DNA from: Octadecabacter arcticus 238
Lineage (GTDB): Bacteria; Pseudomonadota; Alphaproteobacteria; Rhodobacterales; Rhodobacteraceae
Assembly: GCF_000155735.2 (NCBI RefSeq)
Contig: NC_020908.1
Span: 2,795,001-2,859,000 of the forward strand
DNA: 64,000 nt
Direction of reading: 5' to 3'
The notes beneath the pieces were generated by a model. The model worked only from the letters and a program-made list of their open reading frames with translations. It searched no databases and had not been told where the DNA came from. Both the position numbers and the translations under genes were made by a program. Numbering within the stretch: position 1 is the first letter of the stretch; each line of letters starts with the position of its first letter. Below, in pieces: positions 1 to 17,649 of the stretch.

Positions 1-731
1 GGTGGAACTGGGTCCACCCCTGCGGCTTTCATCGCTGCGATTGCGCCACCACCGGTGCCATCATTTGCAGCCACGACGCCGACGATATCACCACCAAAGC
101 GGGTGATCTGACCTGCAGCCCATTCCTGCGCTTTTGGTGGAGCCCAATCTGGCGTGTCAAATTCGGACAGGGTCACGTACGGTGACGCGTCCAGCGCACG
201 ATCCACACCATCACGGATCAAACCAGCAGCAGCATCAGTTGGTGACCCGTTGATTTGCAAAACGCCCGCGCCTTCGGGAACGCCTTGGGCTTGCAAGTTG
301 TCGATGAGCGATTGCGCAATGGCAAAGCCGATGCCCTCGTTGTCAAACGATACATAAAAATCCGCAGGCGAGTCTGGGATTGGTCGATCATATGCAATCA
401 CCTTAACATCTTGCGAGTGGGCAATTTCAACCAATGCGGCGGCCGCAGCGGAATCCACTGGGTCAAGCACAATTACAGTCGCACCCTGCGCGATAACAGA
501 ATTGAATTGTTGCTGTTGCAGTGCAACGTCCGCGTTGCCGTTCTGATAGATCAGCGTGCAGTCAGGGCAAAGTTCTCCCATCGCGGCCTCAAAGCCTGGC
601 CAGTCATGATTTTCATATCGTGTAGACGCCTGATCCGGCATCAGAAAGGCTACGGTTTGCGCTGTGGCTGCAGTAGCAAACAAGGTTGCGACAAGCGTTG
701 ATGCCGCCGCCAGTGATGTTGTCGTTTTCAT
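1..731 (-). CDS. Sugar ABC transporter substrate-binding protein (3' part beyond the left edge)
   Basis: Reading leftwards from the ATG at 731 gives 243 open codons running off the window, so the C-terminus is missing. Residues 1-24 form a signal peptide (MKTTTSLAAAS..., cleavage near ATAQ). The mature part has the fold signature of periplasmic binding proteins of the ribose/xylose type: VAFLMPD near the start, ALVEIAHSQDVKVIAYDRPI, then a DGTGGGAIAAMKAAGVD stretch near the edge. A strong ribosome site (GGAGGAAC) precedes the ATG. The protein should capture a sugar in the periplasm for an ABC importer whose other genes probably lie left of the window. The divergent LacI-type gene at 986 is the likely regulator. 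The exact sugar cannot be read from sequence. Confidence 0.88.
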   Translation of the reverse strand, partial: MKTTTSLAAASTLVATLFATAATAQTVAFLMPDQASTRYENHDWPGFEAAMGELCPDCTLIYQNGNADVALQQQQFNSVIAQGATVIVLDPVDSAAAAALVEIAHSQDVKVIAYDRPIPDSPADFYVSFDNEGIGFAIAQSLIDNLQAQGVPEGAGVLQINGSPTDAAAGLIRDGVDRALDASPYVTLSEFDTPDWAPPKAQEWAAGQITRFGGDIVGVVAANDGTGGGAIAAMKAAGVDPVP

Positions 732-985
732 TATTGTTCCTCCAAACAAATTCGCGCCCGCCCATGCGGAGAGTGACATCCAAGAAGAGACGAACGACTA
801 GTCGCAATCCGCCTCCACGGATCGAAAATGGCCAAATATTCAAACTCTTCCCAGCGCATCACGCAGAATACGCAGTCAACGGTGATATTTGCACCATCGA
901 TTGAGCAAGGTTGCTCCATCGGTTGAACTGCGTCAAGTTAATTTGAATGAACATTTAGATTGAACAATGGATCGCACAATAAAAG
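732..985. promoter_or_regulatory. Divergent promoter region between sugar-binding protein and LacI-type regulator
   Basis: This 254-base gap separates two divergent starts and must hold both promoters. The stretch 940-970 contains imperfectly repeated TTGAATGAACA and TTGAACAAT words that could be operator half-sites, but I see no perfect palindrome. Assignment as regulatory is inference from gene layout. Confidence 0.4.
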
Positions 986-1984
986 ATGGACAAAGAGTCA
1001 AAGAGAACAACGATCTATGACATTGCAAAGCTTGCAAATGTTTCACCAAGTGCGGTGAGCTCCGTGCTCAACGGAACTTGGGAGAAGCGGCGAATCAGCC
1101 GAAAATTATTCGAGCGGGTCATGCAGATTGCAGAGGAACAAGGCTACTCCGTCAATGTTCCAGCCAGTCTGTTGCGACGGGAACGATCCAACATCGTAGG
1201 TATGATCGTCCCCAAATACGACAATCGTTATTTTGGTGAGATTGCAGAGCAGTTCGAGGCCATGGCGCGCGCGCGTGGTTTTTTCCCAGTTGTCACCTGT
1301 ACACAGCGTGACCCCGACTTGGAGTTTCAGGCCGCAAAAGAACTCATCTCCTATCAAGCAGAATGTCTGATCTCGACCGGAACAACCGACCCAGATCGTA
1401 TTTCGGCATTTTGCACAGCATCAAGCGTTCAGTCGATCAACCTTGATCTTCCCGGCAAAAATGCTCCTTCGGTGATTTCGGACAATCATGCTGCGGCATT
1501 GGAACTTACCCAACTCATCCTTGATCGTTGCGCACAGGATCTCGACTGGATTGGACCATTGCGTTTCGTCGGTGGACGGCTGTCAGACCACAACACGGCT
1601 GCGCGTTTAGCTGGCTTTATGGCAGCGCATCGGGATCGCGGAATTTCAGTTCCCGAAACCCATATCATGTCGACCGGCTATTCCGCTGAGAGCGCAGCAA
1701 AAGTATTAGAAAACTGTGTGCCAGAAGGACCGACAGGCCTATTCGTGAACTCGACAATTTCACTAGAGGGCATTGTGCGCTGGCACAGCAAGCTTGAAAG
1801 CAACTCTGAGTTGGTAAGATACGGGTGCTTTGACTGGGACCCTTTCGGATCTTTTTTACCAGGAAATGTAGGTATGATTGAACAAGACGTCACAACAATG
1901 CTGACCAAAGCCTTTGAATTGATAGGTAATCCCAACAGTACTAACCAGCAGATCTTGGTGCCCTGTAAGCTGCGCGTCTTTTAG
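986..1984 (+). CDS. LacI-family transcriptional regulator
   Basis: A 332-residue protein of usual LacI length. Residues about 8-32 (TTIYDIAKLANVSPSAVSSVLNG) are the LacI helix-turn-helix with hinge; from about residue 68 (SNIVGMIVPKYDNRYFGEI) a periplasmic-binding-protein-like effector domain follows. It should bind an operator as a dimer and respond to a sugar. It is divergent from the sugar-binding protein at 1-731, which is the expected target. The C-terminus lacks any extra domain. The ligand is unknown. Confidence 0.9.
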   Translation: MDKESKRTTIYDIAKLANVSPSAVSSVLNGTWEKRRISRKLFERVMQIAEEQGYSVNVPASLLRRERSNIVGMIVPKYDNRYFGEIAEQFEAMARARGFFPVVTCTQRDPDLEFQAAKELISYQAECLISTGTTDPDRISAFCTASSVQSINLDLPGKNAPSVISDNHAAALELTQLILDRCAQDLDWIGPLRFVGGRLSDHNTAARLAGFMAAHRDRGISVPETHIMSTGYSAESAAKVLENCVPEGPTGLFVNSTISLEGIVRWHSKLESNSELVRYGCFDWDPFGSFLPGNVGMIEQDVTTMLTKAFELIGNPNSTNQQILVPCKLRVF

Positions 1985-2702
1985 GATAAAATGAAGTGCC
2001 GTCAGACGAATGCGAACGAGTCTCTGTTCTTCAGCAACCTCAATTCGTTAGGCTAACCCCTTCTTGGCTCGCGTTTGCAGCGAACGTCTGGTTCCCGCCC
2101 TTCACGTCGAAATGTGCATAGCGCAGCATCTGTCACTATCGCCCTAGGAAGTACCTGCTAATGCTGACTGGTCATAACTCGCTCATCCACGGGGACTTCT
2201 GGCTCAACTCAAACCCATCACCATAGCTGCTGCCAACACCGGCCGTGCTCCATCCTCCAAGTGCATCTATGATATCTGTAGGGCACTGAGCCGCTCACAA
2301 ACGGTCCCGGAAGCTGTGCCTGAAGGAATGCATAACGCAGCCATCTGGCAGGGTTCCATGGTCCTGCTGTCTGACAGTTGGAAGGATTGGGTCAAGTCAT
2401 ACCGGACCGCGGTGCGCTGCGCGGGTGCCGTGGAACGGGACTGACGATCCATGTCATAGGCCTCAGAACAAAATTACCCCTGAATGAATTTACAAGGCTA
2501 ATACTAAAGGGCCGTGGTCCGAGGGGCGGGGCCCTACGATAGGGGGGTCCCCTAGCGCCAATTGCAGCTGAACCGTAATGGTTGGGTACAGTAACCCCTG
2601 ATTAACTCTGTTTTGATCTGATGTTTCATTGTGGGTAGTGTTGTGGGTATGGATTGGATCTTATCATAAAAATCAATAAAAACAAACACTTAACCTGCTT
2701 AC
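1985..2702. other. Non-coding stretch left of the integrated element
   Basis: About 700 bases without a convincing gene. The short open frames here lack ribosome sites and recognisable motifs. At 2513-2556 there is a G/C-rich stretch with GGGGCCC and GGGGTCCCC palindromic cores. The region lies between the LacI gene and the left attachment repeat, so it may be chromosomal debris from earlier insertions. Confidence 0.5.
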
Positions 2703-2721
2703 GTGGCGGAGGCTCAGGGAT
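2703..2721 (+). repeat. Left attachment repeat (att), copy of the tRNA-Ser 3' end
   Basis: Nineteen bases identical to 13379-13397, including the complement of the encoded CCA and the acceptor stem of tRNA-Ser. No tRNA body follows here, so this is the displaced end created by integration. Confidence 0.9.
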
Positions 2722-2780
2722 ACTACGCCATGTAGGTATATTAAGTTATAACCCTTATATTATGAGGAATAAGTCTGTAT

Positions 2781-2804
2781 TGTAGGTGGTTTGCGTAGGT
2801 GGTA
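2781..2804 (+). repeat. Left arm-type integrase binding repeats
   Basis: Two direct words, TGTAGGTGGT at 2781 and CGTAGGTGGT at 2794, stand 13 bases apart. The same arrangement recurs at 13315-13338 with 21 of 24 bases identical. Their position just inside each att repeat fits arm sites of a tyrosine integrase. They also sit immediately upstream of the integrase start, so they may regulate it. Confidence 0.6.
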
Positions 2805-2828
2805 ACGTCACTTCAGTGGAGGACTTGT

Positions 2829-4070
2829 ATGCCCCGATATTTACTAAAGCAACGTCAGGGTTGGTATGCCGTTCTAGAGGTACCCAAAGCCCTTAAGGGT
2901 AAGCTAGGTAAGACACGCTTTAAGCAAACGCTAAGCACCCAAAGCCTGACGATTGCACAAGAGAGGGTTCTACCTCTAATTATCCAGTGGAAGCGCCTTT
3001 TTGTGGCTGTAAGGACTGGCGATGACAGCTCACTAGAGGGTGCGGTAGCTCTGCATAGAAGTCATATAGAATTTCATCGCAAAGATGGTTGGACTGAAAA
3101 CGAAATCAAAGATATGTCGATTGATGTATTGCCTCATTGGAAACATGAGCCAGAAAAACATAAGGAGGCGGTACTAGTCCACGATATCGCCTTTGGCAAA
3201 AAGTTCCTTCTTACAGAGTACTTCGATGAGTGGCAGGAAAGCAGCAAACATCTTGCCCAGAAGACAAGGGACATGCAGCGACGCGACGTTATAGAGTTCT
3301 GCAAAGAATTTAGGTTTGCCTCAGATGCTACTTGGCACAAAGTTGTTAAATGGGTCGATACTGAACTCCTGCAAAAACGGGGCCTAAGTGAAGCCACTGC
3401 AAGACGTATAATCTCAGCCTGCAGAGCCTACTGGAAGTGGTTGATGAGGCATCGAGGGTTAGAGGATTCATCTCCATTTACAGATGTTGTTCCAAACAAA
3501 AAGACGGGACGTTCAGCCAAACCTAAGCGCAAAGGCTTCGAAGTGGAGGACTACAGGAGGCTTCTCGCGGCAGCATCTAAAAACAACAAGCACCTATCAG
3601 ACCTTATCAGGCTTGGCGCGCATACTGGTTGTAGGATTGAAGAACTTTGCAGCCTTAAACTAGGCAATGTGAAGCAAGACAGGCTTGTGATTGAAGACGC
3701 TAAAACTCAAGCTGGCTGGCGAGAAATACCAATTCACAAAGATGTCTCTAAGCTTGTTGCAGATTTAGCTAGGGAATCTAGCGATGGATTTCTTATTTCT
3801 GGATTAACATTTAACAAATATGGAGACAGGTCCAATGCTATTGGAAAGAGGTTTGGACGACTGAAGCATAGTCTAAATTACGGCTCTGATTATGTATTTC
3901 ATTCCTTTAGGAAGGGGCTGGCAAGGCAACTAGAGACCAATGGTGTACCAGAAAACATCTCTGCTAGATTGCTTGGCCATGAGATAAACACGATGACCTA
4001 TGGTCTTTACTCTGGTGGCGTCGATTTCTCTGTCTTGGTGGGTGCCATAAGCAAGGTTTCTTGGCATTAA
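2829..4070 (+). CDS. int: Tyrosine-type site-specific integrase
   Basis: A 413-residue phage-type integrase. The N-terminal arm-binding part begins MPRYLLKQRQGWY, a SAM-like core-binding domain follows around residues 130-220, and the catalytic domain shows HTGCRIEEL (first Arg), HSFRKG (His-x-x-Arg), LLGHE (His) and YGLYSGG (nucleophile Tyr). I chose the ATG at 2829 because GGAGG lies seven bases upstream; a GTG at 2799 would overlap the arm repeats. The gene sits just inside the left att repeat and should catalyse integration at and excision from tRNA-Ser. It reads into the element. A remnant of a related integrase lies at the other end of the element. Confidence 0.93.
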   Translation: MPRYLLKQRQGWYAVLEVPKALKGKLGKTRFKQTLSTQSLTIAQERVLPLIIQWKRLFVAVRTGDDSSLEGAVALHRSHIEFHRKDGWTENEIKDMSIDVLPHWKHEPEKHKEAVLVHDIAFGKKFLLTEYFDEWQESSKHLAQKTRDMQRRDVIEFCKEFRFASDATWHKVVKWVDTELLQKRGLSEATARRIISACRAYWKWLMRHRGLEDSSPFTDVVPNKKTGRSAKPKRKGFEVEDYRRLLAAASKNNKHLSDLIRLGAHTGCRIEELCSLKLGNVKQDRLVIEDAKTQAGWREIPIHKDVSKLVADLARESSDGFLISGLTFNKYGDRSNAIGKRFGRLKHSLNYGSDYVFHSFRKGLARQLETNGVPENISARLLGHEINTMTYGLYSGGVDFSVLVGAISKVSWH

Positions 4071-4680
4071 AGTTGCCCAGCGCACTGCTGTGATACTCTA
4101 CCTGCAGGCTGTAATTGATATTCTTGGCTGGAGAAAATTAAACAATATATAGATGTATAATGCTGCATCACATACAACATATGGTATAATTAGTCTGATC
4201 AACTACTTAATGTGCAATCGCTCTTACTAAACCTCAAGACTAAACACCTACTCTAGTGCTGTAGAATACACAGTATTTTTACCAGTACTCGCTCCGAGTT
4301 CACTAAAATTCCTCTGTTTAGTAACAATGAGTTATTATGATAATTGTTGAAATATCTGATTAAGTTTACATTAAACTATTGTAATTTATGAACTCGCAAT
4401 TATCTCAATTTGGCAGGCAGCGAATCTTTGTCGCTACTAAGACCTGTGCTTTCCAGCACCCTCACTGGATAAAATCCATATAACCTTATCGTTGCCAACC
4501 CTAATTGGTTGCAGTGTTATTGTTTTGTCGTGCCTACGGCTCTCTCAACGCGTCCCTACAGCGTCATTAGCGTCCCCATCCTACCCCATACTCATCCCAA
4601 TATAGATCACGTCCTGAGCAACCTCATGTGGCCTGTGAGAGCCTGTGCGTGTCCACCCATAATCAAGGAAAACTAGTAAA
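4071..4680. other. AT-rich non-coding region upstream of the helicase gene
   Basis: About 600 bases of very AT-rich DNA with no supported gene on either strand. It probably holds the helicase promoter and 5' leader; AAGGAAAAC at 4667-4675 is the ribosome site for 4681. No clear iterons or hairpins were recognised. A divergent repressor, common in phage satellites, was looked for and not found. Confidence 0.5.
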
Positions 4681-6075
4681 ATGACCAAAAAGAACAATAC
4701 GTACACAGATGACACTCCATATTCGCACCTGTCAGACGGGATGAGCCTAGCATTTGACCGCTTGGATAATAAGTTCGGGAAGCAGTTGGATGGGGATACT
4801 ATCAAAGCCTTAAGTGAGAAAACTTATCTTCAATCGGATGGGAATGGCCGCTCTGTTATCCGCCACGACACTGGACACCGTACTGTCACAACCACACCTC
4901 TCGAGGTCGAGCAGTCGCTGCTGTCAGCTTATGAAATGAGCTTTGGCTGGCAGGACAATCTACTTGCAATCCCACACCCTGTTTACGCTCCAAACCGACC
5001 TATCTGGCTCAAAGATGACAAATCCCTCTTTCGTAATACGTGGCGGAAGGCAGAAGTCTTATTCACTGTCCCAGAAATCCCCGAGGATGGTTCTGTTGTT
5101 AGTAAACCACCAGAATGGGCTGCATTTCTCCAGCGTGTCTTTCATGGTGAACTAGCGAGCGACCTCAGTGCTGTTCAAGAAGACCCAACCAATGAGTTCC
5201 TCCTTGATGGTATAGCCAATAGGACCCCAGACAGAGAACGGTTCATCAAGGAGTTTGAACTGTGGCTCGCCTTTAGTCTGTTTAGCGATCAGCGTCCTAT
5301 GTGGGGCCCAGTGCTTCGTGGTGGTCACGGGACAGGTAAAGGAACTATTGCAAACCAGATACTTAAACCATTTGCTGGTGCATCTAACTACGTCCAAATC
5401 CTACCCCACAATCTCAAGGGCGATCATGCTGCACAACTTCTGACCGAACGCCTGATGATCGTATTTGATGAAGTAAATGACCGTGGACAAGTCTTTTATG
5501 ATCGCCTGAAGAATATGACTACTGAGCCAACCCTAGCTGTAAATCCGAAGCATCTTGCTCCTTATACAGATGAGCCAGTATTTTCTGTTGTAGTGCTTTC
5601 CAATGAAGAAGTGCCCATGAGCTATCCTGAGGGAGAGCGACGATGGCTAGTATCGCCATACATGGTTCATGAAGTAGACGGTGAAGATACCGCAGGGTGG
5701 TTATACGATACATTCGTACCTTGGCTCAGAGATGGGGGCTATTCAGAGGTGGGTCAGTATCTCAAGTATTTGGTGGCTACAGAAGACCTGCCTGCACAAG
5801 CTTGGAAAAGCCCTTGGTTCTACGAGACCTGCAAGACCGATGCGAATGAAGATCACACAACAGCTATACTTACTTGGTTAGGGCAGCAGAATGAAAACCA
5901 AGGTTACACTATTTCTGGGCTGTCTAGTCACTTCAAGGCTGGGTCAGGTGTTGTGAAAAAGTGTCTGGCGGACTGTGGTTATAAGCGTGGTAAAACTAAC
6001 GGAACGAACATTAACGTAATGAAGAAAAAAGGTAAAACGGGCCAATTGCACCCTATTTGCTCTAAGACTGATTAA
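4681..6075 (+). CDS. SF3-type helicase / primase C-terminal domain replication protein
   Basis: 464 residues. Walker A is GGHGTGKGT near residues 219-227, followed by Walker B-like RLMIVFDEVND around 258-268 and the later VVVLSNEEVPM and GERRWL stretches typical of superfamily 3 helicases of phages, satellites and plasmids (DUF5906/D5-like group). The N-terminal part has no recognisable primase active site, so it may act with a host primase. It should unwind DNA at the element's origin and allow autonomous replication after excision. The TTCTCA array just downstream is a candidate origin. The assignment to the helicase superfamily is secure; the subfamily is less so. Confidence 0.85.
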   Translation: MTKKNNTYTDDTPYSHLSDGMSLAFDRLDNKFGKQLDGDTIKALSEKTYLQSDGNGRSVIRHDTGHRTVTTTPLEVEQSLLSAYEMSFGWQDNLLAIPHPVYAPNRPIWLKDDKSLFRNTWRKAEVLFTVPEIPEDGSVVSKPPEWAAFLQRVFHGELASDLSAVQEDPTNEFLLDGIANRTPDRERFIKEFELWLAFSLFSDQRPMWGPVLRGGHGTGKGTIANQILKPFAGASNYVQILPHNLKGDHAAQLLTERLMIVFDEVNDRGQVFYDRLKNMTTEPTLAVNPKHLAPYTDEPVFSVVVLSNEEVPMSYPEGERRWLVSPYMVHEVDGEDTAGWLYDTFVPWLRDGGYSEVGQYLKYLVATEDLPAQAWKSPWFYETCKTDANEDHTTAILTWLGQQNENQGYTISGLSSHFKAGSGVVKKCLADCGYKRGKTNGTNINVMKKKGKTGQLHPICSKTD

Positions 6076-6143
6076 CCTACCATAATTCCCACTGTAGGGC
6101 TGCTGGCTTAAATGCTGGTGGCCTTATACCACTACCCAGTAAT

Positions 6144-6297
6144 TTCTCACTTTTCTCAATGTCTTCTCACTCAAAGAGAAGTGGTATGTCTTTGTAAATA
6201 AGTGATATTGTAGTGATTTCTCAATTTCTCATTCTTCTCATCACCTATTTTCATTAAGACTGAGACTCCCTCCCGATTTATGCCTCAGGGCTTCTCA
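6144..6297 (+). repeat. TTCTCA motif array, candidate origin or operator region
   Basis: The hexamer TTCTCA appears at 6144, 6153, 6164, 6218, 6226, 6235 and 6292, all on the same strand, within 154 bases right after the helicase gene. Spacings of 8-11 bases in the first two groups place copies on roughly the same helix face. The whole 6076-6535 gap has no supported gene. A role as iterons bound by the replication protein is inference. Confidence 0.45.
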
Positions 6298-6535
6298 TCA
6301 ACTCAGACCAGACCGTGTTCCTGTTGTGGCAATGGCAGGGCTTAGACTACCAAAGCGATATTATCCCAATGCAATAACCAGTGGTCTAGTAAGGCTATTC
6401 CTCGGTTATTTGAGCCTAGAGATCATTACACGTAAGGGGTTTTTGTTGCCTTACTGCTCTCCGAGAACTCAAAATAGTTTTGGGAATCTACGACCTATAG
6501 GCATGGGCCTTTTTATGAGTTTATGCACCTATAAA

Positions 6536-7030
6536 TTACTGTGACAGTTGAAGCGATAAAGCAATAGCAACTCCAAACACTGCATGTACTCCAAGCGCTG
6601 ATAGGCAGGCCAAAACTGGGCGTGGTGTTTTACTGCCTAATACCCCAGCCCCCATAGTTGGCATAAAGAAAAACCAAGGCACGGCTACACTCACGATACC
6701 GAAGATCAAACCATCAAGAAAAGTAGGGGTCAATATTCCCACGTTTTTCCAGAGAGCTATGTATGCAATCACATACATCATCCCAATAAGATAATGGAAA
6801 ACCCAGCCAATCATAGTCTCGCGCGGATACGGTGTAATTTTCTGCAATTGATGACCGAAGATTTTATGAGTGTTGACTGTAGCAAGTAACCAGCGCCCAA
6901 CCATCGCCCAATTAGTAGGAGGTAAACCTCCCAAACGATGATATAAGCGTTGCCAAACATCCATAACAGCGACAGAAAAAATGCTTACTGTAATAATCGT
7001 TAAGGTTGTGCTCATCAGCATTTTTATCAC
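6536..7030 (-). CDS. DUF2938-family membrane protein
   Basis: 164 residues with four predicted membrane segments (near residues 8-25, 75-95, 103-125 and 140-160). The pattern NWAMVGRW, GWVFHYLIG and MGAGVLGSKTP matches the DUF2938 family of small inner-membrane proteins, whose function is unknown. The start could also be the ATG at 7015. It has no operon partner here; the next gene upstream is the IS66 fossil. It is cargo on the integrated element. Confidence 0.75.
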   Translation of the reverse strand: MIKMLMSTTLTIITVSIFSVAVMDVWQRLYHRLGGLPPTNWAMVGRWLLATVNTHKIFGHQLQKITPYPRETMIGWVFHYLIGMMYVIAYIALWKNVGILTPTFLDGLIFGIVSVAVPWFFFMPTMGAGVLGSKTPRPVLACLSALGVHAVFGVAIALSLQLSQ

Positions 7031-7102
7031 CGTTTCAATAATTTATTAAAATCCATTATAGCGTTTAAGACAAAAGACAAGCGCTATTATGTAGGTTTAG
7101 CG

Positions 7103-7189
7103 TCAAACTTTTAAGTTCCACGGTAGCAGTTGGTCGATGTGTTCAATAGGACGTCTACTTAGACGATAATCAGTCAACATATGTTTCAT
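7103..7189 (-). pseudogene. IS66-family transposase (TnpC) C-terminal remnant
   Basis: The last 28 codons read MKHMLTDYRLSRRPIEH then IDQLLPWNLKV and a stop, which matches the conserved end of IS66 TnpC transposases (HxIDxLLPWN). Everything upstream is gone; the resolvase gene follows at 7214. It is a fossil of an earlier insertion inside the element. Confidence 0.65.
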
Positions 7190-7213
7190 TAGGGTTCTCG
7201 CCTTGAGAATAAC

Positions 7214-7768
7214 TTACACAGACAAGCACCTGTAATATGAAGCCTTCGATATGTTCAGTTGCTCCTGTATCTTCAGACGATCAACACCAGCCTCAACCAA
7301 CGCTTTCACCTTATCAGCTTTGTTCATCGCTGTTGGGACACGGCCCTTATATTTGCCTTCAGCCTTAGCTCTTTTGACGCCTTCGACCTGTCTTTCCTTC
7401 ATCATCTCACGCTCAAATTGGGCGACAGACACCATCATGTTGAGTATGAGCTTGCCTGTTGCAGTTGATGTATCAACTCTCTCTGAGCCTAAGGACAAGA
7501 TAACCAAGCCAGCGCCTTTGGCTTCAATCTCTTCTAGTATGTTTCCCATATGAGCGACTGATCTCGCCAGACGGTCCAGCTTCGTTACTACCAGCTTGTC
7601 ACCAATGCGTAGGATATCAATAGCAGCATCAAGCTGGGTACGGGTAGCAACAGCAGACACTTGCTCCTGATACATACGCTCACAGCCGTATGCCTTCAGT
7701 TCGACTAGTTGAGCTTCAAACCCTGCCTGTTGATCAACGGTGCTGGTTCTGGCGTATCCGATTAACAT
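7214..7768 (-). CDS. Serine recombinase (resolvase/invertase family)
   Basis: 184 residues, the normal length for small serine resolvases. The catalytic N-terminus reads MLIGYARTSTVDQQAGFEAQ, with the active Ser in RTST, followed by TKLDRLARS and the E-helix FEREMMKERQVEG; a C-terminal helix-turn-helix (RLKIQEQLNISKASYYRCL) binds DNA. It could resolve multimers of the element or invert a segment. No inverted recombination sites were recognised next to it. A remnant of another serine recombinase lies at 10031-10132. Confidence 0.9.
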   Translation of the reverse strand: MLIGYARTSTVDQQAGFEAQLVELKAYGCERMYQEQVSAVATRTQLDAAIDILRIGDKLVVTKLDRLARSVAHMGNILEEIEAKGAGLVILSLGSERVDTSTATGKLILNMMVSVAQFEREMMKERQVEGVKRAKAEGKYKGRVPTAMNKADKVKALVEAGVDRLKIQEQLNISKASYYRCLSV

Positions 7769-8084
7769 CTACTGTCTCTCCATTTGACGAATCATTAGCC
7801 TCTTAAGCTTATCTGAGACTAACACTGTATCAGCCGTGGAGCAAGCTATTGAGACAGAACTGCCCAGAATACCTTCAATACAGGTGTCTCAGGTGTTGGA
7901 TCACATGAGCAGGCTTTATTGAGGCTTGGCTATACTCAAATATGAGGCAAGGCTGCTAGAGTTTACAGGTTATTAATAAAGTAAATCAGGGCTAGGCGTC
8001 TAGGCGTCTAATCGCCTCTGAAAACAGCCTCATCACTCTTATTAATAAGGCTTAAACGCCTATACACATGTTGATTTAAGGCGT
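7769..8084. repeat. Non-coding region with GGCGTCTA repeats
   Basis: The octamer GGCGTCTA is repeated in tandem at 7995-8002 and 8003-8010 and again at 8080-8087, with a reverse-type AACGCCTA near 8054-8061. The region lies between the resolvase promoter and the small exported genes. These may be recombinase or regulator sites, but no function can be assigned. No gene is supported in this gap. Confidence 0.4.
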
Positions 8085-8204
8085 CTAATTGGTGTCCATT
8101 ACGATGAACGCATTATCCTGAAACGCAGTAGCCGTATAACGCCCATCACTAGCCATTGCTGTACCAGCGGAAAACAAAAACGCTGCGGTTAAAACTAGTC
8201 TCAT
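8085..8204 (-). CDS. Tiny exported protein, short paralogue of the upstream gene
   Basis: A 39-residue frame: MRLVLTAAFLFSAGTAMASD followed by GRYTATAFQDNAFIVMDTN. The signal peptide and the GRY-T-T-A core are clearly related to the 62-residue neighbour at 8204-8392. Its ATG overlaps that gene's stop by one base (TAATG), which suggests translational coupling. It lacks the C-terminal Cys-containing half of the paralogue, so it is either a truncated duplicate or a genuine micro-protein. Confidence 0.5.
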   Translation of the reverse strand: MRLVLTAAFLFSAGTAMASDGRYTATAFQDNAFIVMDTN

Positions 8205-8392
8205 TACATAGTCCACGGAGTGCAAATGGTTTGACCCCCTGCGGCACGGCAGAAACGAACAGCACCCGTCTTGCTGTCTGTAATAAAGACGCCAGGGTGA
8301 GCAGGTGTTGCCGTAGTCACATAGCGTCCCTCTGCAATTGCTGCCCCAGAGGCTGCTGTCATCAAGAGCGCTGCGGTTAAAAGAAGTCTCAT
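8204..8392 (-). CDS. Small exported protein with two cysteines
   Basis: 62 residues. Residues 1-20 are a signal peptide (MRLLLTAALLMTAASGAAIA), and the mature part is about 41 residues with one GRYVTTATPAHPGVFI strand-like segment and two cysteines (RFCRAAGG, TICTPW) that could form a disulphide. I do not recognise the family. It is followed by a one-base-overlapping paralogue. Export of such a small protein by a mobile element is unusual; a periplasmic modulator or toxin-like role is possible but not shown. Confidence 0.6.
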   Translation of the reverse strand: MRLLLTAALLMTAASGAAIAEGRYVTTATPAHPGVFITDSKTGAVRFCRAAGGQTICTPWTM

Positions 8393-8485
8393 AATGTTAC
8401 CTTTTTGTGTTGATACGAAAGACTAGCCGCAACCAATCCCCCAAAGGCTACATAATAGGAATGGTAACTGTAAATAACCCAAAGG

Positions 8486-8644
8486 GATACACGCCGTACT
8501 GCTCTCTATGAACTGAAGCGAGAGGCTTATGAAGTTGGAGCTAATGCTGTTGTTGGGGTGGACTTGGATTATGTAGAACTGAGCGGCGCAGGTTCCATGG
8601 TCATGCTGGTAGCGTCTGGAACTGCTGTAATCATTGAAGACTGA
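8486..8644 (+). pseudogene. YbjQ-family fragment, decayed duplicate of the gene at 10161
   Basis: The frame from GAT at 8486 to the stop at 8644 reads [20 protein letters not shown] and continues to GTAVIIED, nearly the same as the last 52 residues of the intact gene at 10161-10640. No N-terminal part precedes it. Similarity continues past the stop (ATCACAGCCAAACG... and ATCGCGCGACAA occur behind both copies), so a segment larger than the gene was duplicated and then truncated. Confidence 0.85.
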
Positions 8645-8929
8645 TGAGCTTTCACCGACAACATCGTGGGACCCCCAGATCACAGCCAAACGATCTGCTC
8701 AGGGCAGGTATCCACATCGCGCGACAATATAAGCAAAACCCTATCTGGAAAAAAAATAAATTCCTGAGTTACCCAAGTAGCTTCTTCAGCCACCCTATAG
8801 GTTTAACCGTAAGCGCTGCTTTGATCCCACCACGCGGATGATGCAAATGCAAAACCTACCCATGTCGCGTTATTTCTAAAAATTAAGTTCACAATCCCAG
8901 TGGAGAACATCGTTTACGGGAAATTCTTG
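8645..8929. other. Non-coding stretch with duplicated 3' flank
   Basis: The first about 100 bases are a diverged copy of the sequence following 10640. The remainder shows no gene or recognisable signal. Confidence 0.5.
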
Positions 8930-9811
8930 TTACTCAGACTTTCTGAATAACCGCATCATCCAAGTTCCAACCCAATAAAGTGGAAGTAAAAGAAGGAAAG
9001 CGGCTTTCTTCAAAAATAGCACAAGAGCAACCAGAATACCGGTCACAGCAGCTTTCCCGTATTTCACACCAACAAGCGATGCCAAAACGCCAACAGCTCC
9101 GACGGCTGCAACTTTATCTCCAGAGACAAAGGACGAGTACCCTTCCAGCAGGTTAGGCTCGTATTTGTCCAGAACATCGTTGATGGTGGTCACTATTTGT
9201 GTCTCGGACATATTTGAATCAACGGGCATAATAGAGAAGGTAATAAATCCATACCGATCAAAAACTACGGCTTTAACGTTGGTCACGGGTTCTCCACCCC
9301 AAGTAATATCGGTAGCATAGTACATGTAGTTTTTGGCAGTATTTAAGGTTGGGTATACCCTCCATCCGTCGAAGGTAATAATCTGTCCAATCCTTTCTCC
9401 CTGCTCCTCAACCGATGCTCGGAGGTAGTCTTCAATATCAGAAATAACTTCTTCGCGTTCATCTGAATCCCAATCGTCGAGTTTGACGTAACCAGACGCA
9501 TCAGGCTTGTCTATTATCAGCGTATCTATCTGTGGTGTAAACAGAAACACCATGACATCTACCTCTTCGCATCCAGCCCATCCAAACTCTGTTTTGACCA
9601 GTTCGCACATCTCTTCTCTTGGCATCTTAATTGCCTCTTGGGATGAAGGCATAAGTCTTCCGCGTGATACGGTCAGCGGTTCTATAAAAGCATATGGATT
9701 TACCTCTTGAGCATAGAGGATGGCAGGTCCAGAACTGAAAGCCATAAATGAAACTACAAGGAAAATTATGTTTTCTCGTAGCAGCGTTTTGAGAAATCTG
9801 TTTGAAAGCAT
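8930..9811 (-). CDS. DUF2167-like membrane-anchored exported protein
   Basis: 293 residues. A hydrophobic signal segment spans about residues 14-34, then a soluble domain of about 200 residues with two nearby Cys (MCELVKTEFGWAGCEE), then a C-terminal hydrophobic region from SGDKVAAVGAVGVLAS to the basic end MRLFRKSE with one or two membrane segments. This architecture, including the GDKVAxxG start of the membrane region, matches the DUF2167 family. Function is unknown in the family. It is a single gene with its own upstream region. The family call is from memory of the pattern and is moderately sure. Confidence 0.65.
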   Translation of the reverse strand: MLSNRFLKTLLRENIIFLVVSFMAFSSGPAILYAQEVNPYAFIEPLTVSRGRLMPSSQEAIKMPREEMCELVKTEFGWAGCEEVDVMVFLFTPQIDTLIIDKPDASGYVKLDDWDSDEREEVISDIEDYLRASVEEQGERIGQIITFDGWRVYPTLNTAKNYMYYATDITWGGEPVTNVKAVVFDRYGFITFSIMPVDSNMSETQIVTTINDVLDKYEPNLLEGYSSFVSGDKVAAVGAVGVLASLVGVKYGKAAVTGILVALVLFLKKAAFLLLLPLYWVGTWMMRLFRKSE

Positions 9812-10030
9812 CTCACTTTGACCTTCGTTAATTAGTAAGTTTAAGCTAGCTGATCGCTGAAGCGGATTTATAAATTTCTTGTAATCGTCATTGTTGTTAT
9901 TCTCACTTAGTTTTCAAGTATTAAGCGAATCATTCATAGACAAGCCCTCTTTTCAATCACCACGGTGAAGGGGATGGGAGCTGAGGTCAAACGGTTGCCG
10001 CCTACGAGACATCATGGCTGTAGTAACCGA

Positions 10031-10132
10031 GGACTTACAAACAACTCTCCAGACCCTGAACATAAAGCTGCTGGTATGGGTGCTATTGCACGGGCGCTGG
10101 GCATTGGTTGGGCAACTGTCTACAAGATATAG
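10031..10132 (+). pseudogene. Serine recombinase C-terminal remnant
   Basis: The frame reads GLTNNSPDPEHKAAGMGAIA then RALGIGWATVYKI and stop. The last part is the Hin/resolvase DNA-binding helix-turn-helix. The catalytic domain is absent; upstream codons are degenerate. The intact YbjQ-type gene begins 29 bases downstream. Confidence 0.65.
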
Positions 10133-10160
10133 CACTCAAGTAATTAGAAGGTGAAACGAC

Positions 10161-10640
10161 ATGGCTCAATGCAAGAAGTGCAATAAGAAGATTGGTTTTT
10201 TAGACTACGCCGCGTCGGGAATATGCCTTACCTGCTACAAAATCGAGCACATGCCTCAAAGCGACGAAGATGTAGAACTGCATAAGCACAGGGTAGAACA
10301 GGACGCCAAGATTGACGCTATCATGCTAACCACCGAAACAGCACCCAACCTCAACATCACCAAGCGCATTGAGATTGTCACAGCAGAATGTGCGTTCGGT
10401 ATGAATATGTTCAAAGACCTGTTCGCTGGGGTAAGAAATGTTGTTGGTGGACGCTCTGAGGCTGTTCAAAAGACTATGCGAGACTCACGCCGTACTGCAC
10501 TCTATGAACTGAAGAGAGAAGCTTTTGAGGTAGGTGCTAACGCTGTTGTCGGTGTGGACCTTGATTATGTAGAACTCAGTGCCGCTGGTAATATGGTCAT
10601 GTTGGTAGCATCTGGAACGGCTGTAGTGATCGAAGACTGA
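10161..10640 (+). CDS. Zinc-ribbon plus YbjQ-type (UPF0145) protein
   Basis: 159 residues. The N-terminus has two CxxC pairs (MAQCKKCNKK and GICLTCYK), a small zinc ribbon. The C-terminal about 100 residues match the YbjQ/UPF0145 fold ([49 protein letters not shown]), a family that forms pentamers and is loosely described as heavy-metal binding. A ribosome site AGAAGGTGA lies before the ATG. A truncated duplicate occurs at 8486-8644. Its role on a mobile element is unknown. Confidence 0.85.
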   Translation: MAQCKKCNKKIGFLDYAASGICLTCYKIEHMPQSDEDVELHKHRVEQDAKIDAIMLTTETAPNLNITKRIEIVTAECAFGMNMFKDLFAGVRNVVGGRSEAVQKTMRDSRRTALYELKREAFEVGANAVVGVDLDYVELSAAGNMVMLVASGTAVVIED

Positions 10641-11045
10641 CAGGGCTTAGCCATCACAGCCAAACGTTTTGCCGGACATAGATATCTAAATCGCGCGACA
10701 ACATAAAAAAAATGGTTTTGCTCCTACGAATTCAGCACTTTGGGCGGGAACCAGACGTTCGCTGCAGTCGCGAATCTTAATTTCATCACGGGAGAAAGCA
10801 GACCTTCCGCTTTGCGATGCTGTGTCGGAGCAGCAAAGGGCTCGTTTCGAGTCCTCAACGGACGCCCGGAAATCACGTGCCAATAACAACCACGCCAGAT
10901 CTTTGTCATCAACTAATTGTTCTTTTATCATGTACTTGAGGGTAGAACTTCAGGTTGATCTTGCGGTCGGCGATGCGGCTGACAGCGTAAAAAACTGAAG
11001 TTACGTAGTACGGGCGAAAGAAGACTAGAAGGGTCGTTCTCAGGG
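10641..11045. other. Non-coding stretch, no gene recognised
   Basis: The first 70 bases correspond to the duplicated flank also found after 8644. The remaining 330 bases contain short frames on the minus strand without ribosome sites or motifs. Composition from 10720 to 10900 is less AT-rich than its surroundings and may be debris of another insertion. Confidence 0.4.
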
Positions 11046-11876
11046 TTAACTATCTCGTTCAGCTATACCCTTGACCTTATTTTCAGGCAGTCCGTCGTAC
11101 AGCTCGTTGATAAGCTTTTCTTCAGAGATCATCGCGTTCACAATTAGATTAAATACATTAAACAACTTCAGTGCGGTTTGGCTGTCATCCCGCATATCAA
11201 GTTCGCCGGGGTGCACGGACTCGTTTCCAACCACTCTAAGTACATCAAGTGCCCTTTGTATCTTTTGGCTCAATCCCTTCGCAACCAAAGCCTTTATATC
11301 TTTATCAATGGATTTCCCTTCTTGACCGAGTTCGCAGCAGAGTTTTTGGATGCAAAGACGAAGCAATGCCGCTGCGCCACGTGGTGATTGTATGAAGATC
11401 AGTGCTGCTTCTTCATAATCAGCCTTGATGTCACTTGGCGTGTCAGGGTTTACCATAGGCGCAGTTCGAGCCTCCGGATAGATCAGCGTGCTGTGTACCC
11501 AAATGGCGATGTCTTGGCACGATATGCATTGGCTTATATGAACATTCTCTAAAATGGTATCGTTCGCTTTTCCAAAAAATTTCCTCGATAGAGATGGCTT
11601 GCCAGACGATTGAATACGTGACTTGTCGTATTTTTTCCTGATCTCCGCAGCTTCTAATTCTGCTTCTGTTGGCGTGTGACCTCGTGTGGTCGGCTTTGGA
11701 GACGGTAATTTTTGCGCCTGTCTCACCAAGTCTTGAAATTCTGATTGGAGAAATACTTGAGGAATCGACCCGTCCATACTGCTAGCCTCAACGACACGCC
11801 AAGCGTGGTGCGAAAAGGCTCCGCAGTGAGGGCAGTCAAATGATTTCAGTTTTATCGATGCGGGTCTTGTTGTCAT
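11046..11876 (-). CDS. DUF4145 domain protein
   Basis: 276 residues from the ATG at 11876 (a GTG at 11894 is also possible). The N-terminus has a zinc-ribbon-like FDCPHCGAFSHH and later SQCISCQD, giving two CxxC pairs. From about residue 150 the helical DUF4145 region follows (YEEAALIFIQSPRGAAALLR, LCIQKLCCELG, VRVVGNESVHPGE). DUF4145 also occurs in restriction and anti-phage genes, but here it stands alone without a nuclease domain. As cargo of an integrative element, a defence-related role is possible but only inferred. Confidence 0.8.
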   Translation of the reverse strand: MTTRPASIKLKSFDCPHCGAFSHHAWRVVEASSMDGSIPQVFLQSEFQDLVRQAQKLPSPKPTTRGHTPTEAELEAAEIRKKYDKSRIQSSGKPSLSRKFFGKANDTILENVHISQCISCQDIAIWVHSTLIYPEARTAPMVNPDTPSDIKADYEEAALIFIQSPRGAAALLRLCIQKLCCELGQEGKSIDKDIKALVAKGLSQKIQRALDVLRVVGNESVHPGELDMRDDSQTALKLFNVFNLIVNAMISEEKLINELYDGLPENKVKGIAERDS

Positions 11877-12220
11877 AAACTCATTCCAATCCACTCAGGG
11901 TAGTTAAACCTGATTATCGCGTTATGATTGCGTCGTCCATGTGGATGCGCAAACGGAGGGTGCCACCCCAGATATTAGCCCCGTAGAAGCGCGTAAGTCT
12001 CATTTGCTGACGTTGATCTAGAAAATACCCTATACGCACTGTATGACGCCCACAGGGCCTCTCAGAGCCATTCTAGGTTAATGTATCGGGTGTAAGTGAC
12101 GCCATACAACAATTCAGAGGTATCTGAGAGCCACAGAGGGCGTCCCTGAGTGATGTTAAGGACTTCCCCTTGATAACCCAAGCAAACACCACTGTGAGGG
12201 GCTTAAGGCGGTTCCTAGGG
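11877..12220. other. Non-coding stretch, no gene recognised
   Basis: No supported open frame on either strand. It lies between the DUF4145 promoter side and the 3' end of an integrase fossil on the minus strand. Confidence 0.45.
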
Positions 12221-12379
12221 TTACTTCCAACTTACATGACTGATGGCTTGCAGTAGTACATCCAAGGCTAAGCCGTCTGAGTAACGACCAAAGGTCTCGT
12301 TTTGGATTTCATGTCCCATAAGTCTTGCTGATACGTTTAACGGGATATTAGCGTTCTCTAGTTGAGTGGCAAAGCCCTT
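12221..12379 (-). pseudogene. C-terminal remnant of a second tyrosine integrase
   Basis: The minus strand reads KGFATQLENANIPLNVSARL then MGHEIQNETFGRY, ending in VSWK and a stop. This aligns residue by residue with the end of the intact integrase at 2829-4070 (KGLARQLETNGVPENISARL, LLGHEINTMTYGLY, KVSWH) including the HE motif and catalytic Tyr. It is in opposite orientation and only about 52 codons long. The stop of the neighbouring exported-protein gene at 12389 lies in the same frame, so the break point is near 12380-12390. Confidence 0.88.
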
Positions 12380-12388
12380 ACTTATATT

Positions 12389-12907
12389 CTACTCCAAAAC
12401 AGGCAATGCAAGAATATCGGCCATGAACGCATCCAGCGCCGATGGCTCACGTTGCGCCATGAACCGTTCAAACAGGATGGCTTCACGTTCCACAATGCCT
12501 TCTCGGATGACCATTTGCCTATTAATAGCAAATATCCACAATTTTAGTATGTCCATTTCAACTGCGTCCAGACCACATGGCCGTGTCATCCTATCAGCAT
12601 ACGTTCTTGAAGAAACTGAGGACATCATTGCGCCATTAGCAATGTTACCAAATGCAAGGTCAACTATTGCGCCAAGGGCTTTGAAGTCATCAAATGTCAA
12701 CTCATTGCAGACTGCCGTTTGGGTAAAACCCTCAATGACCACACTGCGTTGATTGGAGGTCATATCTATCGCCTCAACTTCACCCTGCAAATAGCTCAAC
12801 TCTGTCAATATCTCGGATGTACTTTGGTTCAGGAGGTCCTGAGCCTGTGCCGTGGTAGCAAACACTGCCAGTGTTGCAAGGGTTGTCATGGTTGTTCTTA
12901 GTGTCAT
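12389..12907 (-). CDS. Exported protein of unknown function
   Basis: 172 residues from the ATG at 12907, chosen because AAAGGAGAAAAAG precedes it; an upstream in-frame start at 12952 lacks a site. Residues 1-22 are a signal peptide (MTLRTTMTTLATLAVFATTA). The mature domain is helical with two cysteines (TAVCNELTF and TRPCGLDA) about 45 residues apart. I do not recognise the family. It ends directly against an integrase remnant and belongs to the element's cargo. Confidence 0.7.
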   Translation of the reverse strand: MTLRTTMTTLATLAVFATTAQAQDLLNQSTSEILTELSYLQGEVEAIDMTSNQRSVVIEGFTQTAVCNELTFDDFKALGAIVDLAFGNIANGAMMSSVSSRTYADRMTRPCGLDAVEMDILKLWIFAINRQMVIREGIVEREAILFERFMAQREPSALDAFMADILALPVLE

Positions 12908-12998
12908 TACTTTTTCTCCTTTGGAGTTACCTGCTGACGTTAGTCTGTACATTCACACCGTTCCCCTACCGAACTCAACAATAGCTGGCCCAGACTAG

Positions 12999-13142
12999 CT
13001 AGAAACACTTCTTGCCGGACTTACTAAAAGTAATGCACAAAATGAATTTCAAGTACTCGCTAACTTTAAAATGCTTCTGGATGAATTTCCCACCATGCTT
13101 TTAACAGAAGCTTTGGATGATCGCTATCAGTGCAATCAATAG
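12999..13142 (+). other. Possible coding remnant (47 codons)
   Basis: After an in-frame stop, the frame LETLLAGLTKSNAQNEFQVL continues with NFKMLLDEFPTMLLTEALDD and ends at TAG 13140-13142. The composition resembles a helical protein, but no start codon or family is recognised. It may be the tail of a lost gene, or chance. The remaining bases from 12908 to 13314 show nothing else. Confidence 0.25.
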
Positions 13143-13314
13143 GTCTTCCCTAAGAAGGGGCGTGGGACCCTCTCGAAAACACCCAAACGATTTTGATCAG
13201 GGGGGTATCCCGAGTCATCTACAAAATAAGAAAATATGTTAGCCACCAAGGATTGCTCCCCACGACTTCTCTAGATTTTTACAAAAAACAATTCAGGACA
13301 ACGTTGGTGGTCAA

Positions 13315-13338
13315 TGTAGGTGATAAGCGTAGGTGGTA
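13315..13338 (+). repeat. Right arm-type integrase binding repeats
   Basis: TGTAGGTGAT at 13315 and CGTAGGTGGT at 13328, again 13 bases apart and in the same orientation as the left pair at 2781-2804 (21 of 24 bases identical). They lie about 40 bases inside the right att repeat. Confidence 0.6.
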
Positions 13339-13378
13339 GACATCCGCCAATCCCCTTATTTATATGACTTATAGGGTT

Positions 13379-13397
13379 GTGGCGGAGGCTCAGGGAT
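13379..13397 (+). repeat. Right attachment repeat (att) within tRNA-Ser
   Basis: Identical to 2703-2721. It covers the end of the T-arm, the acceptor strand and the encoded CCA, so the integrated element restores a complete tRNA. Confidence 0.9.
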
Positions 13398-13469
13398 TCG
13401 AACCCTGGGAGGACTTTCACCCTCGTCGGTTTTCAAGACCGGTGCATTCGACCACTCTGCCAAGCCTCC
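13380..13469 (-). tRNA. tRNA-Ser (anticodon UGA)
   Basis: On the minus strand the gene starts GGAGGCTTGGCAGAGTGG, has the anticodon loop CTTGAAA with TGA anticodon, a long variable arm (CGAGGGTGAAAGTCCTCC), the T-loop GGTTCGAATCC, and ends AGCCTCC-G-CCA with the CCA encoded. The 7-base acceptor stem pairs perfectly. The 3' end is the attachment site of the integrated element. Confidence 0.97.
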
Positions 13470-13692
13470 GCTTAGACATACCTTTAAGCAGGGCCAATTG
13501 ATTCTAAAAGGACCTATGCACGCTCTTTTATCAAAGAGGAAATCCGCCGAAATGACACCAAAGCCTTTCAAAGGTGCGCGCGCGCAGCTAATGTCGCACA
13601 AAGGCCTGCGTTTGCAGGCAGATCTGACTGAGCAGAACAAGCCCGCAAAGGGCACAGCGCCGCAAAATACGGTGCAGATAAGAGGGCGAACA

Positions 13693-14610
13693 ATGGCAAG
13701 AGAACTTTCAGGCAAATCATTGGTATCAAAAAAGAATTTCGGAATGGCATTGGCGATAACCACGGTACTGGCGCTGAGTGCTTGTGACGAAAACGGAGAA
13801 TTTGCACTCCCAACTTTGGGCGGCGGTGCGGATGATGTCGTCACAGTCGCGCCCTCCCAAAGCGTACAACTGGTGGAACGTGACGTTGAAGCGCCCGACG
13901 CATTTCAAGTCACCGAAGCTGGTTTGTGGGACGGTCGCCCGTCGCTGGGCGGGGTATGGGTCGCCCATCCAGACGTCACAGAGCCTGAGCGCGTGATCAT
14001 CCGCAACCAAGCCAACGGCACTTTCGTGATCGGGGCGCTTTTTAGCCGTGAACGCGACAATCCAGGTCCATCCTTACAGGTTTCATCTGATGCGGCCGCC
14101 ACGCTGGAAATGCTCGCAGGATCGCCAACACAATTGCAAGTAACCGCGCTACGCCGTGAAGAAGTGGCCGACGCGCCGCAAGCCATGCCGACGGCTGATT
14201 TCGAAGCCCCAACAGACATTGCAGCCACACCTATCGACAGCACACCCCTAGATGCGCAGGACCCGATCGCAGCAGCTGCCGCAGCAATTGATGCCGCCGA
14301 AGCCGCAGCGCTGACCCCGGCCACTGCCCTGCCCGTTCCATCGCCGCGCCCAACCGCTGCCCCATCTGCCTCGGGTCTTGATCGCGCCTTTATTCAGATC
14401 GGCATCTTTTCGGTCGAAGACAATGCACGCGGCACAGCTGATCGGTTGCGTGGCACCGGAATTGTGCCCACAGTGCTTGAACAAACGAACCAAGGCCGCA
14501 CATTCTGGCGCGTCATCGTTGGCCCTGCTTCTTCCGAGAACGAACGCGCCGAATTGCTGCGTCAGGTCAACGCGCAGGGTTTTGAGGACGCCTATTTTGT
14601 CACGAACTAA
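13693..14610 (+). CDS. SPOR-domain lipoprotein
   Basis: 305 residues from the ATG at 13693. A lipobox LSAC places the modified Cys at residue 31, so an in-frame start 195 bases upstream is unlikely. The middle is Ala/Pro-rich, and the last about 75 residues (FIQIGIFSVEDNARGTADRL to FEDAYFVTN) form a SPOR domain that binds denuded peptidoglycan at division sites. It is directly followed by a D-Ala-D-Ala carboxypeptidase gene, consistent with a cell-wall role; in roseobacters these two are commonly neighbours. Confidence 0.9.
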   Translation: MARELSGKSLVSKKNFGMALAITTVLALSACDENGEFALPTLGGGADDVVTVAPSQSVQLVERDVEAPDAFQVTEAGLWDGRPSLGGVWVAHPDVTEPERVIIRNQANGTFVIGALFSRERDNPGPSLQVSSDAAATLEMLAGSPTQLQVTALRREEVADAPQAMPTADFEAPTDIAATPIDSTPLDAQDPIAAAAAAIDAAEAAALTPATALPVPSPRPTAAPSASGLDRAFIQIGIFSVEDNARGTADRLRGTGIVPTVLEQTNQGRTFWRVIVGPASSENERAELLRQVNAQGFEDAYFVTN

Positions 14611-14642
14611 TCCCCTCACCATCTAACCCACCGAGAGGCCCC

Positions 14643-15842: not shown

Positions 15843-15844
15843 TC

Positions 15845-17640: not shown

Positions 17641-17649
17641 AGGTCGCAA

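Follow-up and report, generated by a model that had tools for sequence, protein, structure and literature searches.

An integrative element at a tRNA-Ser gene

The DNA analysed here, called the window throughout, is a stretch of 64,000 nucleotides from the marine bacterium Octadecabacter arcticus 238 (contig NC_020908.1, positions 2,795,001 to 2,859,000), and our subject is a 10.7-kb element near its left end that carries a tyrosine integrase, an SF3-type helicase, a serine resolvase and several cargo genes (Table 1). The element is bounded by the 19-bp direct repeat GTGGCGGAGGCTCAGGGAT, present in two exact copies, with no third copy anywhere in the 64 kb when as many as 3 mismatches are allowed; the chance expectation was a mean of 0.01 match, and 2 copies were reached in 0 of 100 shuffles. 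The tRNA-Ser(TGA) gene spans 13380-13469 on the minus strand, so that its 3′ end forms the right copy. The GC content in 1-kb windows was 41% to 49% inside the element versus 55% to 60% rightwards of it (up to 20 kb), and about 50%, likewise low, on its left side. A preliminary description of this DNA had proposed a tRNA-borne integrative element with an integrase at one end and an SF3-type helicase, and both genes are indeed open and retain their motifs (Pfam and motif check). The resolvase, the arm sites, the iteron array, the match to an anti-phage model and the remnants of an integrase and a YbjQ gene, all treated below, go beyond that description.

Table 1. Features of the element and its target gene, in window coordinates.
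Feature	Position	Strand	Basis
Distal att copy (19 bp, equal to tRNA-Ser 3′ end)	2703..2721	+	exact repeat
Left integrase arm-type doublet GTAGGTGGTT-TGC-GTAGGTGGTA, 13-bp period	2782..2804	+	
Tyrosine integrase, DUF6538 N-terminus, open, catalytic motifs	2829..4070	+	Pfam, motifs
SF3/D5-like helicase (DUF5906), 464 aa, no primase domain recognised	4681..6075	+	
Iteron array TTCTCA x7, one strand, predicted replication origin	6144..6297	+	shuffle test
DUF2938 protein, cargo	6536..7030	-	Pfam, E 3.3e-38
Serine resolvase/invertase, conserved partner of the integrase group	7214..7768	-	Pfam Resolvase, 9.5e-37
Small exported-protein ORF, apparent paralogue of the 8204..8392 ORF	8085..8225	-	DNA repeat; no family
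Small probable exported protein, 62 aa	8204..8392	-	no family (Pfam, PHROGs)
Remnant of second YbjQ gene, C-terminal third	8474..8641	+	profile, E 2.8e-26; DNA repeat
DUF2167 protein, cargo	8930..9811	-	Pfam, E 2e-18
YbjQ protein	10161..10640	+	Pfam
DUF4145 (HEPN clan) protein matching anti-phage model PD-T7-4	11046..11894	-	Pfam, PADLOC
C-terminal remnant of second integrase	12224..12388	-	profile, E 1.3e-17
Probable exported protein, 187 aa	12389..12952	-	no family above cut-off (Pfam)
Right integrase arm-type sites, three GTAGGTGGTA-type units	13303..13338	+	
Att copy within tRNA 3′ end	13379..13397	+	exact repeat
tRNA-Ser(TGA), intact target gene	13380..13469	-	tRNA call

The integrase combines DUF6538, SAM-like and Phage_integrase domains (Pfam). 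The catalytic R/H-x-x-R/H/Y motifs of tyrosine integrases are present. The list of open reading frames (ORFs) starts the gene at GTG 2799; the ATG at 2829 is the more likely start. Among the matches listed (best 7994 candidates scored), the nearest homologues stand at 99%, possibly the window's own protein, and then at 70%. Arm-type sites lie at both ends of the element: the arm unit has 7 matches in the window with at most 1 mismatch versus 1.1 expected, 4 of these at the two ends, and a 12-mer is common to both ends (p = 0.003).

Pfam and PHROGs scans covered the nine larger ORFs of the element, and the family results given here have this scope. No capsid, terminase, portal or conjugation family was found above the Pfam cut-off, and no PHROG match was named as capsid, packaging or transfer, as the preliminary description had also reported.

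The helicase gene is followed by a predicted iteron origin

The helicase matches Pfam DUF5906 (PF19263, E 1.6e-16), with VapE-like under its cut-off, and its Walker A and B motifs are intact. In structural modelling the SaPI5 primase-helicase was among the best folds, and the C-terminal part (residues 388-449) is predicted to form three helices and short strands, probably the part through which the putative iteron binding would take place. Likeness also extends to the C-terminal helicase region of the NrS-1 phage polymerase (PDB 6k9c), which differs in having an N-terminal primase-polymerase part that was not recognised in the window helicase. The 12 homologues besides the protein itself all lie on contigs of 1.4-5.8 kb, and no close relative was found in genome contigs or IMG/VR viral contigs with two peptide patterns per scan.

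Directly 3′ of the helicase gene lies an array of TTCTCA hexamers starting at 6144, 6153 and 6164 and, after a 48-bp gap (69% AT), at 6218, 6226 and 6235, the last copy being at 6292; 7 copies were reached in 0 of 500 shuffles. A 101-genome search for DUF5906 gave 29 places, of which surroundings were taken for 26 besides the window and two were left. For each helicase gene the commonest hexamer (k = 6) in the 450 bp flanking it was compared with 200 shuffles, an array being called significant when it beat all or all but one of these; the test took in 24 of the 27 loci (16 + 8, window included), as L126, L127 and L132 had no called ORF. Significant arrays were found 3′ of 11 of the 24 genes and 5′ of 0 of 23, and in only 1 of 138 control 3′ flanks of other ORFs, drawn from the 15 non-window loci of the first 16 tested. 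At k = 8, L138 and L130 (3′) and L125 (5′) also reached at most 1 of 200. The 3′ hexamers vary by locus (TCGACA x11, CCTCCA x15, CTGACC x13, GGTGAC x10), so that the arrays look independent of one another. Judging from these sequences, each DUF5906 helicase may read its own iteron.

Relatives of the integrase share a mobility chassis

Relatives of the integrase were collected at one genome per species, the best 80 of 146 confirmed being kept and 9 from IMG/VR added (89 loci). At least 5 kb downstream was available for 58 of the 80; 35 of these 58 carry a resolvase similar to that of the window, and the next downstream tRNA on the minus strand is tRNA-Ser in 27 and any tRNA in 33. At 24 loci the 3′ end of the tRNA is repeated close to where the integrase was called to start, and 22 of these were taken as delimited elements; L176 and L227 were left out, their repeat being located after the called start. 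The delimited relatives are 2.2-10.6 kb long, sit in named Alpha-, Beta- and Gammaproteobacteria, and use tRNA-Ser in 18 of 22 cases. The resolvase lies inside 18 of the 22 versus 0 of 37 flanks of at least 3 kb. The profile behind this count was trained on the resolvases of 14 delimited elements and two others; the same 18 elements came out of an all-against-all BLAST clustering, and the window resolvase alone found 17 of these.

Counting the window element, 19 of 23 have a sequence common to both ends (p < 0.05 versus random pairs of the same locus). The shared sequence reads AACGTGTGTGGTA in several roseobacters versus GCGTAGGTGGTA in the window, and not all of these sequences are of the GTGTGTGG type (e.g., L183, L217 and L224). 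The window element has the features of the group: a DUF6538 integrase about 100 bp inside the distal att copy, a resolvase, shared arms, and at the other end a tRNA-Ser on the minus strand relative to the integrase. In five relatives (Palleronia, Boseongicola, Nioella, Roseovarius and Roseivivax) the tRNA-Ser(TGA) adjoins the same SPOR gene as in the window; dacA, tmk and holB come next after it in three of them, and the other two stretches end there. The preliminary description had suggested an uncharacterised family of roseobacter elements marked by integrase plus helicase. Relatives do exist elsewhere, but what they share is the resolvase and not the helicase, and the restriction to roseobacters fails, the hosts extending to Azospira, Thauera, Halomonas and Pseudomonas. 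As a group-defining gene the helicase was rejected, since its profile finds no relative in the 89 loci and no DUF5906 place lies by coordinates in the 22 delimited elements.

For the cargo of the relatives 96 ORFs were scanned, with 25 of 59 families listed. Among the matches listed, a C-5 methylase, an Mrr-type and a Bpu10I-type restriction gene occur once each in the 96 ORFs, and a second search agrees on the methylase and the type IV enzyme. A ParB-like assignment for a protein common to five delimited elements is weak, ParB_N having matched in 1 of 3 members scanned, under the cut-off. One IMG/VR viral contig (L231, 5798 bp) carries a related integrase, an att-like GGTGGCGGAGGAACAGGGATCC and a AACGTGTGGGT doublet; since no terminal repeat was found on it, it is no evidence of packaging.

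Upstream of the window resolvase gene, GGCGTCTA occurs three times at 7994-8090 (8-mer p = 0.022, one of 30 tests) and is a possible candidate for a resolvase recombination site. A resolvase relic suspected by eye at 10040-10135 was dropped, since the resolvase profile gave no match there and Pfam HTH_7 reached only E 0.1.

The relatives carry different replication genes

Seven of the 22 delimited relatives carry a TV-Pol-like protein of 430-522 aa (a 172-aa fragment in L192), whose alignment shows a GGRxYG arginine hairpin and ExD, RxxxK and HD motifs. The assignment is based on the agreement of these motifs with the published description and on a profile match to L089:4164-5474, itself unannotated; a PDB search with the TV-Pol-like profile gave no match, and the profile matched nothing in six frames of window 2600-13480. 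Single relatives have other initiator-like genes: an ORC/CDC6-DnaA-like ATPase in L211, an AAA_25 ATPase in L217 and, among the matches listed, a Replicase-family protein in one delimited element. Nine of the 22 host genomes have Pfam DUF5906 matches, at 11 places in total, and by coordinates no place falls within a delimited element; the contigs of these places being listed without names, one place could by its numbers lie in L217, and the ORF there is no DUF5906 protein.

Other integrases do accompany DUF5906 helicases. A tyrosine integrase of some kind was present in the fetched stretch of 13 of the 26 other DUF5906 loci, by a profile partly trained on five of those loci. The host genome itself has an element at a tRNA-Phe (L087) with an integrase, a DUF5906 helicase, a resolvase and a YbjQ relic, in which 330 bp are 90% identical to window 11965-12295 and the 3′ part of the tRNA-Phe is repeated at 14781-14835; an element at a tRNA-Leu of a congener has a truncated integrase, a DUF5906 helicase and a 38-bp repeat. 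The integrase-helicase pair, a search for which the preliminary description had suggested, is thus not rare in the sense of integrase plus DUF5906, the pairing of the exact clades being so far seen in the window only. In congener locus L089 a TV-Pol-like protein (4164-5474; profile match 99.6%) is separated from a DUF5906 helicase by about 5 kb and by an att-like repeat, and its gene probably belongs to a neighbouring element. The congener proteins at L088:8139-9011 and L089:4164-5474 both stand near DUF5906 helicases and HNH-type genes, the TV-Pol relation of the former and the HNH gene of L089 being judged by eye. A BLUF-type blue-light sensor occurs at two tRNA loci of different species (L087:13164-13604 by Pfam, L089:13604-14035 by eye).

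Host genome copies and congeners

The left end of the element, arm doublet included, has a near-identical second copy at a distance of 0.28 Mb, where the att core differs at two bases. The integrase of this copy (L086) is broken by insertions, among them 415-aa transposase genes that are near-identical to one another and IS256-like by eye. A search for a tRNA close to this second left end gave none, and an exact search of the genome gave no further copy of that tRNA end. The 78 bp outside the left att copy of the window element (2625-2702) contain a doubled GTGGGTA and are visibly like the bases flanking the att at L086:8272-8353 in the second copy, as if the right arm of a further element had come to lie there by tandem accretion.

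In the 18 congeners searched, several with incomplete genomes, no full-length close relative of the integrase was found. The tRNA was on the fetched locus in 15 congeners, 13 with 1.2-1.5 kb beyond it, and in all 13 this stretch had no match to window 1-20000, which indicates that the element is absent at their tRNA. The stretch varies by species, only L014 and L016 being alike (82%). The comparison of the tRNA-Ser locus foreseen in the preliminary description thus yielded absence in 13 congeners; an empty site that also shares the left flank was not obtained in clean form, because the DNA after the tRNA differs between congeners. The lack of a close full-length integrase in the 18 congeners and the presence of other DNA at 13 tRNA-Ser genes speak for a horizontal arrival of the element.

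Cargo genes

The names DUF2938, DUF2167, YbjQ and DUF4145 given earlier to the cargo were confirmed by Pfam. This cargo is less odd than had been claimed. PADLOC assigns the DUF4145 protein to its anti-phage model PD-T7-4 at E 2.9e-76, the match being strongest across residues 111-282, and relatives of the YbjQ protein, 43.9% identical along 97% of it, occur in Rhodobacter phage RC1 and Rhodovulum phage RS1. A HEPN survey (PMC3710099) counts DUF4145 in the HEPN clan and connects it in several ways with defence, and by its sequence the window gene is a probable anti-phage gene. The element is also a mosaic, since the C-terminal ends of a further integrase and a further YbjQ gene persist in it as relics.

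A proposed combination of a mobility chassis with a replication module

We consider it probable that this is an excising, self-replicating element made of a mobility chassis and a replication module, and most likely spread by a helper. This interpretation draws on the att repeat, the arm sites, the integrase, the predicted helicase fold, the iterons, the conservation of the resolvase and the relatives in the same tRNA gene, from which we infer excision, replication, iteron binding, a role for the resolvase and helper-dependent spread. In the mobility chassis, the DUF6538 integrase would recombine at the tRNA-Ser 3′ end through doubled arm sites at both ends, and the small serine resolvase probably resolves multimers or cointegrates; the integrase, together with a putative excision factor, would release a circle. 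In the replication module, the helicase would bind the TTCTCA array 3′ of its own gene, probably via its winged-helix-like C-terminal part, melt the AT-rich gap and load as a helicase on the excised circle, synthesis being left to polymerase and primase of the host or helper. The resolvase would keep the circles monomeric, and re-entry into tRNA-Ser would restore that gene. The remainder would be cargo, including the probable anti-phage gene, and relics of sister elements. Since no particle or conjugation gene was recognised, travel between cells would most likely occur in the particles of a helper, in the manner of phage satellites; the satellite-type replicon and the anti-phage cargo favour a phage as the putative helper.

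Several results weigh against this interpretation. Coding density is only 62%, and together with the integrase and YbjQ relics this could mean a decaying mosaic. No excisionase or AlpA-like gene was found in the nine larger ORFs or in 20 small gap ORFs, no packaging signal was found in the element, and an exact pattern for the attP junction of the excised circle had no match in IMG/VR. The structure model of the helicase is middling (mean pLDDT 71), the helicase sequence profile found no relative at the 89 integrase-relative loci, leaving the pairing of the two clades to the window alone, and 13 of the 24 DUF5906 genes have no significant 3′ array (k = 6), which also speaks against a strict rule for such arrays.

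Comparison with known systems and rival explanations

The view of the preliminary description that no described phage-satellite or island type fits is not supported: the search model for PICMIs, the helicase-iteron layout of PICIs and the chassis of TV-Pol elements each overlap with the element. The published systems are compared here as described in excerpts of the papers cited. TV-Pols are known from several roseobacters, Paracoccus and Thauera, a subset of their genes neighbours a gamma-delta resolvase, a lambda-type integrase or a transposase, and mobile elements were inferred from this (Iyer, Abhiman and Aravind 2008, PMC2579912). The resolvase/integrase neighbourhood and the TV-Pol-like proteins of the 7 delimited relatives agree with these elements, whereas the window element has a stand-alone SF3 helicase and iterons in place of a TV-Pol. 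Because such neighbourhoods are reported in PMC2579912, the window element can be read as a TV-Pol-sort chassis with a satellite-type helicase-origin cassette.

A closer tie to satellites, namely that this is a bona fide one of the kind of phage-inducible chromosomal islands (PICIs) or PICMIs, packaged by a helper phage, is a serious contender that falls somewhat short of an even chance in our judgement. In PICIs and the staphylococcal SaPIs the origin comes after the replication initiator and has two groups of iterons separated by an AT-rich gap (PMC6092414), and the window element resembles them in its terminal integrase and in its predicted origin, placed directly 3′ of the helicase and similarly divided; the SaPI5-like fold prediction and the anti-phage cargo point the same way. 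The PICMI search model asks for integrase and DUF5906 with AlpA, DUF3987 and fis (PMC10803314), and PICMIs of Vibrionaceae are likewise small marine elements with integrase and DUF5906, defence cargo and no capsid genes. Against this, no AlpA family (the Gram-negative PICI regulator) and no Stl/Xis family was found in the larger or small gap ORFs, nor terS, capsid or interference families by Pfam or PHROGs in the larger ones; a primase domain was not recognised, and a resolvase is present. The site is tRNA-Ser and not fis, DUF3987 was not found, the length of 10.7 kb compares with a PICMI average of 6.7 kb in Vibrionaceae (PMC10803314), and neither the attP junction nor close helicase relatives appeared in IMG/VR. 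HE-PICIs (PMC10111431) have a doubled attP motif, and one tRNA-Phe group of them lacks a primase and has a resolvase; they differ in their Enterobacteriaceae hosts, and this likeness is drawn without comparing integrases. P4-like satellites carry the capsid-size and polarity-suppression genes sid, delta and psu, none of which had a PHROG or Pfam match in the nine ORFs. Tycheposons and VEIMEs are tRNA-linked, use a tyrosine recombinase and are packaged into particles or vesicles.

It seems unlikely to us that several elements piled up at a tRNA-Ser hotspot and left behind an immobile composite or decayed remnant. The relics, the coding density, the sister copy broken by insertions and the tRNA flanks that differ between congeners fit such a history, but integrase, helicase and resolvase are all open and keep their motifs, the att repeat is perfect, and arm sites and iterons are preserved. 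Serine resolvases are typical of multimer resolution, and the one present here, with the weak similarity of the helicase (22-28%) to small-plasmid proteins of Klebsiella and Methylobacterium nodulans (3 records), would suit a plasmid-like element that integrates and that spreads without a phage, by mobilisation or transformation. We think this improbable; no relaxase, oriT protein or partition family was recognised in the nine ORFs (Pfam, PHROGs).

The element is built from known modules, and what is new is their combination, as a variant. A wider proposal, offered tentatively and on the doubtful side, is that the group forms a widespread, unnamed lineage of 2-11 kb replicons with a fixed chassis (DUF6538 integrase, doubled arms, resolvase, mostly tRNA-Ser) on which defence cargo and whole replication modules are exchanged, be it a TV-Pol, an SF3 helicase together with its iterons or, in single cases, another initiator-like gene. 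In the window element a PICI-type helicase-origin cassette would then have docked, making it a resolvase-bearing, AlpA-less phage satellite. Defining the group by integrase clade, arm doublet, resolvase and tRNA-Ser allows these small elements to be found automatically, and the findings suggest that the mobility chassis can stay constant while the replication module is exchanged. Distant DUF5906 loci have 3′ iteron arrays built from a hexamer of their own, which opens helicase-origin pairing to direct tests and offers a handle for predicting origins in elements without a known helper.

Published records and minor observations

The Octadecabacter arcticus 238 genome paper (PMC3646047) reports one 'P4-integrase' and very many insertion sequence elements, and the excerpt covered holds no description of the window element. 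The literature searched, most subscription journals lying outside its scope, contained no Rhodobacteraceae phage satellite at a tRNA and nothing on DUF6538.

Left of the element, a 7.2-kb stretch (window -5083 to 2111) that ends 0.6 kb from it is duplicated at 3186153-3193347, about 0.39 Mb away, with 95.8% identity. A short sequence around AGCGAACGTCTGGTTCCCGCCC (window 2065-2150) is dispersed through the host genome and its congeners, and by eye a sequence of this type recurs inverted inside the element at about 10746-10776.

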